DNA of 64,000 nucleotides from Opitutus terrae PB90-1. Its GTDB lineage: Bacteria; Verrucomicrobiota; Verrucomicrobiia; Opitutales; Opitutaceae. Below the pieces are notes generated by a model. The model did not search any database, was not told the origin of the DNA, and saw only the letters and a list, made by a program, of their open reading frames with translations. Location of the stretch: NCBI RefSeq assembly GCF_000019965.1, contig NC_010571.1, positions 3,109,001-3,173,000 on the forward strand, in the 5' to 3' direction. A program made the translations under genes and the position numbers. Shown here piece after piece: positions 4,746-48,823 of the stretch (position 1 is its first letter; every line of letters starts with the position of its first letter).

Positions 4746-4837
4746 TGGCACGGGCGTCCCGCCCGTGTCGCGTGATCAGGAGCCTTGCTCAAGCTGGCGG
4801 CGCGGAGCGCCGTCCACGGGCGGGACGCCCGTGCCAC
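4746..4837. repeat. Inverted pair of REP-like palindromes (GGCACGGGCGTCCC family)
   Basis: TGGCACGGGCGTCCCGCCCG and on (4746-4767) and the inverse CCACGGGCGGGACGCCCGTG and on (4814-4837) face each other across about 45 bases. Each is itself a perfect hairpin. It sits between the exporter gene and oppC and could stabilise transcript ends. Confidence 0.85.
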
Positions 4838-9895: not shown

Positions 9896-9961
9896 GTAGG
9901 GCGGGGTCTCCTGCCCCCGCCGCATTCTGCGACCCGGCGAGGTCGGGAGACCCCGCCCTAC
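9896..9961. repeat. GTAGGGCGGGGTCTCC palindromic element
   Basis: GTAGGGCGGGGTCTCC at 9896-9911 pairs with its near complement ending in CGCCCTAC at 9961. A CCCGCCGC...CCGGCGAGG interior lies between. It lies in the 328-base gap between the histidine kinase and the Ser/Thr kinase, which shows no gene. One frame of this element has no stop and reads RAGSPAPAA...SGDPALQ, almost the same peptide as that found inside the TauE permease at 43935-44001. Confidence 0.85.
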
Positions 9962-10170: not shown

Positions 10171-13131
10171 GTGGATCGCGACGACGAAATCTTCGCTGAC
10201 GCCATCGAGCTGCCAACCGCCGCCCGGGCTGCGCTGCTCGACCAGGCGTGCGCGAGTGATCCCGCGCAGCGGGCGCGGATCGAAGCGTTGCTCGCGGGAC
10301 ATAATGCGGCGGGAGCGTTTCTGGAAAAACCCGCCGGCGCGCCGCTGCCGCTGCCCGACGAGGAAAAGCCCGGCGACGTGATCGGCCGTTATCTGCTGCT
10401 GCAGAAGATCGGGGAGGGCGGCTGCGGGGCGGTTTATCTTGCGGAGCAGAAAATGCCGGTGCACCGACGCGTCGCGCTGAAGGTGATCAAGCTCGGCATG
10501 GATACACGGACGGTGATCGCGCGGTTCGAGGCCGAGCGGCAGGCGCTGGCGTTGATGGACCATCCCGACATCGCGCGGGTGTTCGATGCCGGCGCGACCG
10601 GCGCGGGGAGGCCGTTCTTCGTGATGGAACTGGTCGACGGGCTGCCGATCACGAAGTTCTGCGATGAGCATAGGCTGACAATTCCGGCGCGGCTGGAGCT
10701 GTTCGCGCGGGTGTGCCTGGCGCTGCAGCACGCACACCAGAAGGGAATCATTCACCGCGACGTGAAGCCGTCGAACATCCTCGTGGCGCTGCGCGACGGC
10801 GAACCGGCGCCGAAGGTGATCGACTTCGGCATCGCGAAGGCGACCCAGGACCGGCTGACCGAGCAGACGCTGGTGACGGGCGTGGATCAGTTTATCGGTA
10901 CGCCGGCCTACATGAGCCCGGAGCAGGCGGATCGACGCGATGGCGACATCGACACGCGCAGCGACATCTACGCGCTCGGGATCGTGCTCTACGAGCTGCT
11001 GTGCGGCCGCCTGCCGTTCGATCCGAAGACGCTCAGCCGGGCGGGAGTCGACGAGCTGCGGCGGATCATCCGCGAGGTCGAATCGCCGCGGCCATCGGCG
11101 GTCGTCGGTGTGGCCCTGCCAACCCTGAGTGACCACGGATTACGCGGATCGACACGGATGGATGACGTGAAAGAGGCAGGGAATCCGTGGATATCGGTGA
11201 GATCCGTGGTCGATCGATCCTCGGTTTGGCTGCGGTTTCACCGGCGTGGGAAGCGAACTCCAACCGCGACTCCGCCGAATATCTCGGTGGCCGCTGCTCG
11301 AGGGGTGACACCGAAGCAGCTTTCCTCAGCGCTCCGCGGCGATCTCGACTGGATCGTGATGCGCTGCCTGGAGAAGGACCGCGACCGTCGCTACGGCAGC
11401 GCACGGGAACTGGCCGATGACGTGTTGCGGCACCTGCGGCAGGAGCCCGTGGAGGCGCGGCCGCCGAACGCGGGCTATCGGCTGGAGCGGTTTGTCGCGC
11501 GGAACCGGCTGGCGTGTGCGAGTGCGGCGGCGATCGCGTTGGCGTTGATCGTCGGCACGGTCGTGAGCGTGCGCCAGGCGGTGCGCGCCACCCGCGCGGA
11601 ACGAATTGCGAACGCCGAGCGCGATCTCGCCCAGGCGGCGAGCCGGGCGGAGGCGGTGGCGCGCACCGATGCGCAGCGGCGGCAGGAGCAGGCGGAGGAT
11701 TTGCTCACGTTCATGCTCGGTGATTTTCGGACGGAGTTGCAGAAGATCGGCCGGCTGGCGCTACTGGATTCGGTGGGCGAGAAAGCGATGGCGTATTTCG
11801 CGGCGCTGAAGCCGGAGGAGTTGACGGACACGGCGCTGGCACGGCAGGCGAAAGCTTTGACGCAGATCGGTCAGATCCGGCTCGACCAGAATCGCTACGC
11901 CGACGCCCACGCGGCGTTCACCGCCGGCTACACCCGCGCAGCGGCGCTGGCGTCGCGGCATCCGCGGGATGGCGACATGCTCTTCGAGCGCGCGCAGGCG
12001 GAGTACTGGATCGGGTTCGTGGCACGCAGGCGAGGAGATGCTGTGGCGGAACGCGAGTGGCTCACGCGCTACCGCGATTCGGCGTTCGCTCTTTTGCACA
12101 CTGAAGGTGAAACGCCACGTGCCCAGAGCGAGCTGGCGTGGGGCTACCACAATATCGCCGTGTTGGATGTGGATGCTGAGAATTTCGTGACGGCACGGGC
12201 AGGGTTCGCAGCCGAGGGACGGATGGTTAAGGAGCTGCTGATCGCAGCACCAGGCGACGTACAACTCCAAATGAGGCTGGCGGAGATCGCGTCGTGGCTG
12301 GGGGAGATTTCTCGGCGTGATGGCGACTTTGTCGCGGCGATGGACTGTTATGCGGAGGCCGCGTCCCTATTCGAAAGAATCGCGTCGTTGGAGCCGGCGG
12401 TGCCGCATTGGCGCTATCGCGTGGCCAAAAGCCTGATATTCGCGGGCGAAGTGAAACGGTCACTGGGCCTCCGGATTGCGGCTGATAATTCGTATGCCCG
12501 GGCGATAGGGCTGATGAATGAGTTGGTGGCATTCGATCCGGCAAACAAATGGTGGCGGACGGAGGCCCTGCACGCTCGAATAGTGGGTGGGCGCCCAGGT
12601 TCTGAGGAATATGGCGCTGCTTTGTCGGAAGCGCTGACGGAACTCGAAATGATGGTCAAATCGGAGCCTTCCTCTCGGGCGCTGAAGCGACTTCTTGCGG
12701 AGACACTGCGCATGCAAAGCGCAGACCGTCTGGCGGCTGGTCGAGTTGACCAAGCAGAAGGCGATATTGAGCGAGCGATTGAAGTGGGCGAAGCGCTCGT
12801 TCGAGAGGGGCAGGCCGACGCCAACGTCTGTGCTGAAGCGGCACAGGCTCATCTACTCGCGGGCCGAATCGCGATGGAGCAAAGACGGGTTGCGCGTGCA
12901 CAGGAGCACTGGCGAGAAGTGCTGGCACTCCTTCGCACCCGGTTGGCGACCACCAAAGACTGCCGATTGCTGGACCCAGGCGCACAAGCCTACGTGTTGT
13001 TGGGAATGCTCGACCGGGCAAACCCTTTGGTCGAGCGACTGAGGCAGTGCGGCTATCACTCTTCCGATCCCTTGGCGGCGCCCATTCTGGACGTCGCCTC
13101 GTGGTCAACCAACGAAACCCAAAACCAATAA
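10171..13131 (+). CDS. Membrane Ser/Thr protein kinase with C-terminal repeat region
   Basis: This is a bacterial Hanks-type kinase of 986 residues from the likely GTG start at 10171 (DRDDEIFADAIELP is the usual family N-terminus). The kinase domain spans residues 74-405. It has the Gly loop GEGGCGAVYLA (81), the ATP-binding Lys 104 in VALKVIKLGM, catalytic HRDVKPSN (Asp 197), DFG (Asp 219 region) and GTPAYMSPEQA. A single helix (about 447-467) follows, then a long periplasmic part with TPR-like helices such as QAKALTQIGQIRLDQNRYAD. Residues of about 318-362 are not kinase sequence but a translated dispersed repeat (11129-11222), inserted in frame before KQLSSALRGDLDWIVMRCLE. The kinase lies in the same island as the ECF sigma factor, a common pairing. 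Confidence 0.88.
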   Translation: MDRDDEIFADAIELPTAARAALLDQACASDPAQRARIEALLAGHNAAGAFLEKPAGAPLPLPDEEKPGDVIGRYLLLQKIGEGGCGAVYLAEQKMPVHRRVALKVIKLGMDTRTVIARFEAERQALALMDHPDIARVFDAGATGAGRPFFVMELVDGLPITKFCDEHRLTIPARLELFARVCLALQHAHQKGIIHRDVKPSNILVALRDGEPAPKVIDFGIAKATQDRLTEQTLVTGVDQFIGTPAYMSPEQADRRDGDIDTRSDIYALGIVLYELLCGRLPFDPKTLSRAGVDELRRIIREVESPRPSAVVGVALPTLSDHGLRGSTRMDDVKEAGNPWISVRSVVDRSSVWLRFHRRGKRTPTATPPNISVAAARGVTPKQLSSALRGDLDWIVMRCLEKDRDRRYGSARELADDVLRHLRQEPVEARPPNAGYRLERFVARNRLACASAAAIALALIVGTVVSVRQAVRATRAERIANAERDLAQAASRAEAVARTDAQRRQEQAEDLLTFMLGDFRTELQKIGRLALLDSVGEKAMAYFAALKPEELTDTALARQAKALTQIGQIRLDQNRYADAHAAFTAGYTRAAALASRHPRDGDMLFERAQAEYWIGFVARRRGDAVAEREWLTRYRDSAFALLHTEGETPRAQSELAWGYHNIAVLDVDAENFVTARAGFAAEGRMVKELLIAAPGDVQLQMRLAEIASWLGEISRRDGDFVAAMDCYAEAASLFERIASLEPAVPHWRYRVAKSLIFAGEVKRSLGLRIAADNSYARAIGLMNELVAFDPANKWWRTEALHARIVGGRPGSEEYGAALSEALTELEMMVKSEPSSRALKRLLAETLRMQSADRLAAGRVDQAEGDIERAIEVGEALVREGQADANVCAEAAQAHLLAGRIAMEQRRVARAQEHWREVLALLRTRLATTKDCRLLDPGAQAYVLLGMLDRANPLVERLRQCGYHSSDPLAAPILDVASWSTNETQNQ
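11129..11222. repeat. ACCACGGATT/AATCCGTGG inverted repeat inside the kinase gene
   Basis: GACCACGGATTACGCGGATC and on begins near 11129. Its inverse arms GAATCCGTGG and ATCCGTGGTC lie at about 11189-11220. The element contributes in-frame codons to the kinase. The same vocabulary (ACCACGGATTGCTCGGATT) appears in an intergenic copy at about 44382-44410. Confidence 0.75.
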
Positions 13132-13674: not shown

Positions 13675-13951
13675 TGGCTTAAGTCAGAACGACGCAGGGA
13701 CGCAAAGCTCAACGAGTCGGCCCGACGCCGGCGGCTTCGCGTCTCGGCGTTAGGTGAGGGATGGGATACGCCCCACGCCAGGGACATTGAGAGCGCGACA
13801 TCGCTGGACGGAATGGTGGGCAAGAGCGAGCCCTCGCCAGAGGCTACGGCGGACAAGTTGCCCGCGTTCCCAGGCGCAAGCGTGTTTTTTTGGGGGAACT
13901 CTGCGTTCCCTGCGATTGAATCGGATCGAGTCAGCGGCCAGGGAGGCACAG
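13675..13951. other. Gene-free tract left of the insertion sequence, repeat remnants
   Basis: No gene is supported here. The tract contains fragments of dispersed repeats: ACGACGCAGGGACGCAAAGC and TTCGCGTCTCGGCGTTAGG near 13690-13755, and GGCTACGGCGGACAAG near 13846. The last is half of a widespread CGAAGGCGGA/TCCGCCGTAGC element that also occurs at 19841-19869. Confidence 0.55.
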
Positions 13952-36386: not shown

Positions 36387-36468
36387 GGTGGCACGGGCGT
36401 CTCGCCCGTGCAGGTCGCGGATTGGGAACGGCGGCCCACCAGAATCACGGGCGGGACGCCCGTGCCAC
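36387..36468. repeat. Inverted pair of REP-like palindromes after ptsI
   Basis: GGTGGCACGGGCGTCTCGCC and on (36387-36410) faces CACGGGCGGGACGCCCGTGC and on (36446-36468). A spacer of 35 bases includes CCACCAGAATCACGGGCGGG. This copy is the closest intact relative of the decayed element within the final hydrogenase-like gene at 63459-63485. Confidence 0.88.
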
Positions 36469-43460: not shown

Positions 43461-44369
43461 ATGATGCATTTCGAACTCTGGCAATGGGTGCTCGCGGTGA
43501 TCGGGGCGCTGCTGGTGGGCGTTTCCAAGACGGGCATTGCCGGGCTCGGCATGCTGTTCGTGGTGATTTTCGCGCAGATCATGCCGGCGAAGCAGGCGAC
43601 CGGCGTGGTGCTGCCGCTACTGATCTTCGGCGATATCATTGCGGTTGCATCGTATCGGCAGCACACGCAATGGCGGTTCCTGTGGCGGCTGTTCCCGTGG
43701 ACGGCGATCGGCGTGGTGATCGGATTCGTTGCGCTGGGCCGGATCGACGACCGGCAGGCGCAGGTGATGATCGGGCTGATCGTGCTCAGCTTGCTGGCGC
43801 TGCATGTGGGACGGCGCGTGATAAAGCCGAAGGCAGCAGGGATCAAACCGCAGAATGTAGCCGCGTCGGTTACGGCGCGGTCCGCACCGCGGAGCGGTGC
43901 GGCTACGGGGCAGAATGATACGAGCGTTTGGAGGGCGGGGTCGCCTGACCCCGCCGCGAAAACGGTGATCACGGCGGGGTCGGGCGATCCAGCCGTACAA
44001 CCGCAAGAGGCGTCGCACGGCTGGTGGTTCGCGCCGACCATTGGTGTGCTCGCGGGGTTCACGACACTCGTGGCGAACGCCGCCGGGCCGCTGATGGTCA
44101 TTTACCTGCTGGCGATGCGGCTGCCGAAGATGGAGTTCGTCGGCACGGGCGCGGTGTTCTTCCTGTTGCTGAACCTGTTCAAGGTGCCGTTCATGGTGAA
44201 CCTCGGATTGATCAATGGCGGCAGCTTCGCGCTGAATCTCTGGCTCGCGCCGGCGGTGTTTCTCGGCGCGTGGATCGGGCGCAAGATTCTCCTGCGCATC
44301 AATCAGCGGCTGTTCGAGAATCTTGCGTTGGCATTGAGCGCGGCGGCGGGGGTGAAGCTGTTGTGTTAA
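43461..44369 (+). CDS. TauE/SafE-family permease carrying an in-frame palindromic insertion
   Basis: TauE/SafE proteins are membrane exporters of sulfite, sulfoacetate or related anions. The 302-residue protein has the N-terminal half with LAVIGALLVGVSKTGIAGLG and ATGVVLPLLIFGDIIAVASY and the C-terminal half with APTIGVLAGFTTLVANAAGP, each with about four helices. Between the halves, residues of about 131-182 are not family sequence: they are translations of two palindromic elements (43858-43907 and 43935-44001), both in frame. They enlarge the central cytoplasmic loop and probably do not abolish folding. The sulfur locus is distant. A GCAGAGGCAG upstream is a modest ribosome binding site. 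Confidence 0.88.
   Translation: MMHFELWQWVLAVIGALLVGVSKTGIAGLGMLFVVIFAQIMPAKQATGVVLPLLIFGDIIAVASYRQHTQWRFLWRLFPWTAIGVVIGFVALGRIDDRQAQVMIGLIVLSLLALHVGRRVIKPKAAGIKPQNVAASVTARSAPRSGAATGQNDTSVWRAGSPDPAAKTVITAGSGDPAVQPQEASHGWWFAPTIGVLAGFTTLVANAAGPLMVIYLLAMRLPKMEFVGTGAVFFLLLNLFKVPFMVNLGLINGGSFALNLWLAPAVFLGAWIGRKILLRINQRLFENLALALSAAAGVKLLC
43858..44001. repeat. Two adjacent palindromic elements inside the TauE/SafE gene
   Basis: The first has GTAGCCGC (43858) and GCGGCTAC (to 43907) arms and an inner CCGCACCG/CGGTGCGG hairpin. It is a changed copy of the element at 8690 and 18660. The second has GAGGGCGGGGTCGCCTGACC at about 43933 and a right end in GGGGTCGGGCGATCCAGCCG followed by TACAA, a copy of the element at 9896. 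Both are read without stops. Confidence 0.82.
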
Positions 44370-48731: not shown

Positions 48732-48823
48732 GTGGCACGGGCGTCCCGCCCGTGGAGGGTGGTTCACGCAATCGGCATGGGCTGGAGGCCCATGCCACGA
48801 CACGGGCGGGACGCCCGTGCCAC
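48732..48823. repeat. REP-like inverted pair just before the hydrogenase-like operon
   Basis: GTGGCACGGGCGTCCCGCCC and on (48732-48755) faces CACGGGCGGGACGCCCGTGC and on (48801-48823). Between them lies a further hairpin, GGCATGGGC-TGGA-GGCCCATGCC (about 48774-48796). The right element ends 11 bases before the first start codon of the operon and so occupies its leader. The rest of the 280-base gap, 48555-48731, has only a GGCCGGCGGTCCTCGCCGGC hairpin near 48594. Confidence 0.85.

Follow-up and report, generated by a model that had tools for sequence, protein, structure and literature searches.

How can a gene contain two different palindromic repeats, one after the other, and still encode an apparently complete membrane protein? 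The question is raised by a TauE/SafE permease gene in a 64,000-nucleotide stretch of the Opitutus terrae PB90-1 genome (contig NC_010571.1, positions 3,109,001 to 3,173,000; hereafter the window, to which the coordinates in Table 1 refer). I consider it very probable that the repeats are dimers from two distinct REP families, of the type moved by RAYT transposases, which were inserted in the linker between the two halves of the permease and left the gene intact.

This places the locus in a known process, the entry of REPs into coding regions of the O. terrae genome, and intragenic REPs in this very genome have already been published. According to the main text of Di Nocera et al. (2013, PMC3733652), O. 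terrae has the most intragenic GTAG REPs; more than half of the intragenic copies are dimers or groups, which encode 20-30 residues, and some ORFs are hit twice, both uvrA genes among them. The same main text uses the word "frame" four times, never of a preferred frame, and does not contain the word "permease", although this gene may still figure in the gene list of its Additional file 3. A literature search by title and abstract found no other work on intragenic REPs in Opitutus.

Table 1. Features of the window discussed in the text
Feature	Position	Strand	Basis
TauE/SafE permease gene hosting both insertions, 302 aa	43461..44369	+	ORF; PF01925 match
Element A, GTAG-foot REP dimer, GTAG...CTAC ends, 1-nt spacer; codes VAASVTARSAPRSGAAT	43857..43906	+	R2 model, fold
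Element B, REP dimer with degenerate feet (GGAG; GTAC); codes WRAGSPDPAAKTVITAGSGDPAVQ including bordering codons	43930..43998	+	R1 model, fold
B head unit; palindrome 43934-43955 equals the searched consensus, 0 mismatches	43930..43955	+	R1 model, palindrome search
B tail unit, inverted; palindrome with 2 mismatches	43973..43998	-	R1 model, palindrome search
Full-length B dimer outside the permease gene, intact GTAG...CTAC ends	9896..9961	+	fold, sequence
F-family palindromic units in the window, GTGG foot	4747-4835, 36390-36466, 48734-48821		

An intact permease with a long linker

PF01925 (TauE) covers permease residues 13-300 (E 2.3e-28; 99.9 bits against a cut-off of 32.6), and the match is full-length, spanning profile positions 2-237 of 237. 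Codon-usage scores are positive on both flanks of the insert and in the same frame (0.48 and 0.75). Among the matches listed, the permease halves are 54-83% identical to those of relatives and free of internal stops. A permease match is present in 103 of 120 same-family genomes (O. terrae included), mostly as two or more pieces which, among the matches listed, usually split around residues 120 and 181; in one genome of the same genus (G003) the two pieces are separated by 9 nt.

I compared the linker, measured from the last conserved arginine to the WWFAP-like motif, across 30 of the best matches, namely the window gene plus 29 relatives drawn from as many genomes. It is 68 residues long in the window permease versus 9-45 in all 29 fetched orthologues, in 28 of which it does not exceed 22 (median 11), and the block formed by A and B is missing from every one of the 29. 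The elements lie where the original prediction had put them, in the loop between the permease halves. Only one of the 29 orthologues, L065, comes near to having this loop free of a repeat, and only loosely: its 45-residue linker is unrelated in sequence and by eye contains no REP, so this loop can lengthen by other routes too. The orthologue comparison is the strong evidence for insertion. A search for a solved TauE homologue gave a single match, to a non-transporter, at E 0.44.

Two REP dimers of different families

Two different palindromic elements in tandem had been predicted within the permease, and both were found at the expected coordinates. Element A spans codons 133-149 in phase 0 and element B codons 157-180; both are open in the frame of the permease and are presumably translated with it. 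A folds into two perfect adjacent hairpins with stems of 8 and 9 bp, the form of a head-to-head REP dimer (z-score -4.6; none of 200 shuffles folds equally well). Its covariance model, R2, finds the in-gene copy in the 5.96 Mb genome at E ~8.6e-6, a value due partly to construction because the model counts this copy among its 10 seeds. The genome has 11 other full or partial matches to A, and the model finds at least 23 single units with an E of 1 or less (best 150 candidates scored).

B folds into a single long imperfect hairpin (z-score -6.6; again 0 of 200 shuffles) built of units with a 9-bp stem. The in-gene copy is outside the 18 seeds of model R1, which finds its head in the same genome at E 1.8e-6 and its tail weakly, at 0.56. 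Calibration of the covariance models was rough, and with the best 150 candidates scored per search the copy counts are lower bounds. For an exact 13-mer of the B head the genome has 22 occurrences, with 2 for a reversed control; the B palindrome with up to three mismatches is found at 79 places and the control at 5; and the model finds at least 108 single units with an E of 1 or less (best 150 candidates scored). The dimer outside the permease gene, read in the frame that corresponds to that of the in-gene copy, encodes RAGSPAPAAFCDPARSGDPAL, so the predicted likeness of the two peptides was borne out.

It had further been claimed that one frame of each element has no stop. On the coding strand this is right for this copy of B and wrong for A, which has two open frames. 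A bare B unit is also open in two of three frames because its TAG and TGA fall in one frame. Since A and the bare B unit are each open in two frames, an open frame alone is weak evidence.

A and B together supply 41 of the ~57 extra linker residues, and ~16 lie outside both elements (43818-43856, VIKPKAAGIKPQN; 43907-43929, GQNDTSV); these too are lacking in the 29 orthologues. A genome search for a wider repeat, with A and its flanking stretch as query, returned essentially A alone, and the 11 other A matches extend at most 9 bases past the element. An 8-bp direct repeat, GCAGAATG, flanks A at 43850-43857 and 43910-43917 and shares the first base of A. Target duplication is not expected from RAYT-type insertion, so the repeat may be due to chance.

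B is also found beyond O. terrae: if up to one mismatch is allowed, 36 of 150 genomes of the family carry it (O. terrae included). An exact scan of named genomes gave at least 120 loci; among the 80 rows listed, about 51 bear the label of Opitutia or one of its genera, 7 that of Verrucomicrobia and 22 those of other phyla (18 Gemmiger, 2 Armatimonadetes/Armatimonadota, 1 Coatesbacteria and 1 Hebobacteria). The exact B units labelled Gemmiger come from two MAGs (L156, L158, L165, L223 and other CANRBN/CANRCB records), which are possibly mislabelled or mis-binned.

The GTAG foot and RAYT genes

Across 270 hairpin sites in the window, GTAG stands immediately 5' of the hairpin 9 times against 0.54 expected, third by ratio of observed to expected behind TGTA (4 sites, overlapping with GTAG where a T comes first) and one TATA; for GTGG the count is 8 against 1.4 expected. 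A ends on either side in an unpaired GTAG foot, as does the B copy at 9896-9961, and the CGTC foot of the RPE-4/RPE-6 type is found in neither. Both families also have a short GC-rich hairpin adjoining the foot and many dispersed copies, frequently as inverted dimers, as GTAG REPs do.

A further GTAG REP feature, association with a RAYT gene, was found for B at five loci in relatives (L169, L345, L367, L388 and L314; L281, L234 and L276 are the same sequences as L345, L367 and L314), where B units lie on both sides of the gene. These RAYT genes are 52-54% identical to the RAYT of L003 in O. terrae, and the three that were scanned (L169, L367 and L388) exceed the NCBIfam REP_Tyr_transpos cut-off. 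Because B units flank RAYT genes in relatives, B is a REP family linked to RAYTs. For A, neither O. terrae nor the relatives yielded a RAYT with such flanks.

The O. terrae genome has four Y1 transposase genes, three of them above the Pfam cut-off; L002 and L003 also pass the NCBIfam cut-off for REP-associated tyrosine transposases, and L001 and L004 match below it. None of the four has an A or B unit within 1.5 kb on either side. L002 and L003 each have a GTAG-hairpin family of their own at their flanks, different from A and B; L004 is flanked by unlike inverted repeats, and by eye L001 has no such unit beside it.

Copies inside genes and their frame

How often do such elements lie in genes, and in which frame? 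Gene calls were taken from a codon model trained on the window rather than from annotation. Of 65 B loci in O. terrae, 11 then sit inside a gene and in its frame and 45 are not coding on both sides; 8 have coding stretches on opposite strands around them, and 1 lies between same-strand stretches in different frames. The weak matches in this set (up to four mismatches) perhaps take in other families as well: 2139086 belongs to the C family, and 4110607 is doubtful. In relatives, a term that here includes records labelled outside Opitutales, 221 B rows were found and 193 classified, 28 being too near an edge: 25 are in frame, 134 not coding on both sides, 25 between opposite strands, 7 between same-strand stretches that differ in frame, and 2 contain an internal stop, both at the end of an ORF. 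The F family has 114 matches in the genome against 1 for the control. Among 98 F loci, drawn from the matches listed and from sequence fetched for other comparisons, 14 are in frame and 1 lies between same-strand coding stretches in different frames. The same-strand, different-frame loci of B and F (7 in relatives and 1 in O. terrae for B, 1 for F) could be broken genes or neighbouring genes. A scatter of in-gene copies over random frames with stops, the pattern of simple pseudogenes, was not seen.

The hosts of B in O. terrae include a DEAD/DEAH helicase, a TonB receptor, an EamA transporter, PdxA and a Wzy_C ligase. The helicase carries two copies, of which that at 13854 is counted among the 11 in-frame loci and that at 11253 is left out. 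A Pfam match was found for 9 of 10 scanned in-frame ORFs of O. terrae and for 17 of 20 scanned in relatives, where 25 exist (L163, L174 and L305 have none).

The B heads in genes favour one of their two open frames: 23 read as RAGSPDPA-like and 9 as VGRGLLTP-like peptides, or 18 and 6 (n=24) after repeated gene sites were collapsed by hand (L155 with L262, L170 with L305, L354 with L382, L386 with the O. terrae PdxA, and the kinases L243 with L389 on the first side; L319 with L327, and L323 with L336 and L372, on the other). Against one half, 18 of 24 gives p 0.023 (two-sided binomial). Outside genes a T precedes the B foot in 187 of 201 copies; when only the two open phases are considered and weighted for such targets, the preferred one has a chance of 0.56 from single bases and 0.46 from dinucleotides, and the corresponding two-sided p values are 0.066 and 0.0065, so target preference does not clearly explain the bias. 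The B result is partly exploratory, as the preference was first seen on the O. terrae copies and 80 listed loci and then extended to a set of at least 120 exact-scan loci, part of the one-mismatch loci listed, and 100 fetched stretches. The B tails, whose consensus is stop-free in all frames, fall 18, 11 and 3 over the three phases, counts that are not independent of the heads.

The F unit is stop-free in every frame. Of its 14 in-frame elements 13 have a head unit, and these read GTGVPPV 10 times, WHGRPAR 3 times and VARASRP never, where shares of 0.32, 0.31 and 0.37 are expected (exact p 0.0005). The first six in-frame elements, all GTGVPPV, had prompted the idea, and the peptide had been noticed by eye earlier in three of those genes; the later seven head-bearing elements alone give a weaker result, 4:3:0 (exact p 0.07). 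F tails are mixed over the phases (4, 4 and 1), and in both families tails are more mixed than heads. The favoured frame is the same in B and F, the first two foot bases ending a codon (RAGSPDPA, GTGVPPV). The frame preference of in-gene copies is likely to be real, though not settled, and it is the sole part of this work that may be new.

Several B insertions lie at the same place in the same gene in different genomes. B units follow the same ...LEELGA... motif in the HA2/OB-domain helicases of L354, L382 and O. terrae, and precede ...RIGVCGLNPHAGE in PdxA of L386 and O. terrae (5852522), where the O. terrae protein has 38 residues between aligned parts versus 15 in the solved chain 1ps7_A. 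The class I/II aminotransferases L155 and L262 share a site, as do the PUA/SAM methyltransferases L323 and L372 (L336 is alike by eye), the SpoU methylase-like L319 and L327 (the latter by eye), and L170 (OGG_N) and L305 (by eye, without a Pfam match). These common sites may be either independent insertions or inherited ones.

How the elements came to lie in the gene

What process would produce such a gene? Non-autonomous dimers A and B would have been moved by RAYT-type single-strand transposition, presumably in two separate events, each landing in a stop-free frame with the net frame kept; a permissive loop would have accepted the ~57 extra residues and the permease gene would have stayed intact, frame-breaking insertions being removed by selection. 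Four observations weigh against this account: the degenerate feet and weak tail of the in-gene B, the lack of an A- or B-flanked RAYT among those found in O. terrae itself, the ~16 linker residues outside both elements, and the REP-free long linker of L065. The inserts most likely have no function and are tolerated, probably as neutral additions. They might instead be retained for a role, either as an exapted loop in regulation or partner binding or as an mRNA hairpin that tunes expression, and both the favoured frame of in-gene copies and the places hit repeatedly across genomes (the helicases, with the O. terrae copy at 11253, PdxA and the aminotransferases) speak for this. However, the same peptides occur in proteins as unrelated as helicases, PdxA, transporters and kinases, all 29 fetched permease orthologues do without the insert, and frame bias and common sites would also arise if selection merely let through harmless peptides in permissive loops; a retained role is improbable.

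That the gene is a pseudogene, or the palindromes a chance product of a GC-rich linker, would fit the decay of B in feet and tail, but I reject both readings: there is no stop or frameshift, the TauE profile covers residues 13-300, coding scores are positive on both sides, the model E-values are near 1e-6 to 1e-5, and the linker is far longer than in the orthologues. I attach very little probability to either. The original prediction had drawn a parallel with the Rickettsia palindromic elements, which are noted for their spread into coding sequence, and in outcome the parallel stands, since palindromic elements are here inserted in frame in many genes. As a statement about the kind of element it fails, and actual kinship is highly unlikely: the elements have GTAG feet, B is linked to RAYT genes, in-frame copies within genes are a minority of B loci (11 of 65 in O. 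terrae, 25 of 193 classified in relatives), and RPE-4 and RPE-6 of R. conorii are of the CGTC type in the main text of PMC3733652. Insertion of RAYT-type REPs is probably the mechanism, with only the outcome Rickettsia-like.

A bolder and tentative idea, which I think rather less probable than its negation, is that Opitutaceae REP families have been shaped or filtered to read as harmless flexible peptides, and that RAYT activity carries out a natural in-frame linker scanning which marks permissive loops, sometimes the same loop across genomes. Should the frame preference hold, REP insertions found in nature could be used to map which loops of bacterial proteins tolerate extra residues, and the preference would bear on whether such elements evolve coding compatibility.

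Relation to known elements

A and B share the GTAG foot, the hairpin and head-to-head dimers with the GTAG REP superfamily as the main text of PMC3733652 describes it, and A fits the GTAG-17 head-to-head dimers of O. terrae, whose units are 1-2 bp apart. With the Rickettsia elements, which that text discusses side by side with the intragenic REPs of O. terrae, they share in-frame insertion in protein-coding genes; RPE-4 and RPE-6 differ from the GTAG-type A and B in belonging to the CGTC repeats, which according to the same source apparently have no dedicated transposase. The enterobacterial RU-1/2/3 elements (PMC2759123) are likewise small mobile repeats read within genes, but are described there as longer, MITE-like units of 103-168 bp.

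In the REPtron or TnpAREP (RAYT) systems described in PMC8266576 and PMC6006769, a REP and an inverted REP surround a tyrosine transposase gene, as B does, and in one subclass REPs have entered the transposase gene itself and left its reading frame intact. Unlike in those accounts, the targets here are unrelated host genes, and B-flanked RAYTs were seen only in relatives. Two of the transposase genes of O. terrae have features of their own. L004 (G000:C1:5390221-5390376) is a RAYT-like gene, frameshifted by eye, and its flanking inverted repeats are without a GTAG foot. L002 (G000:C1:3173458-3173688) lies just past the end of the window, flanked by another REP family (GTAGGGCCGGCG...), and its TAG stop codon is supplied by the GTAG of the downstream REP.
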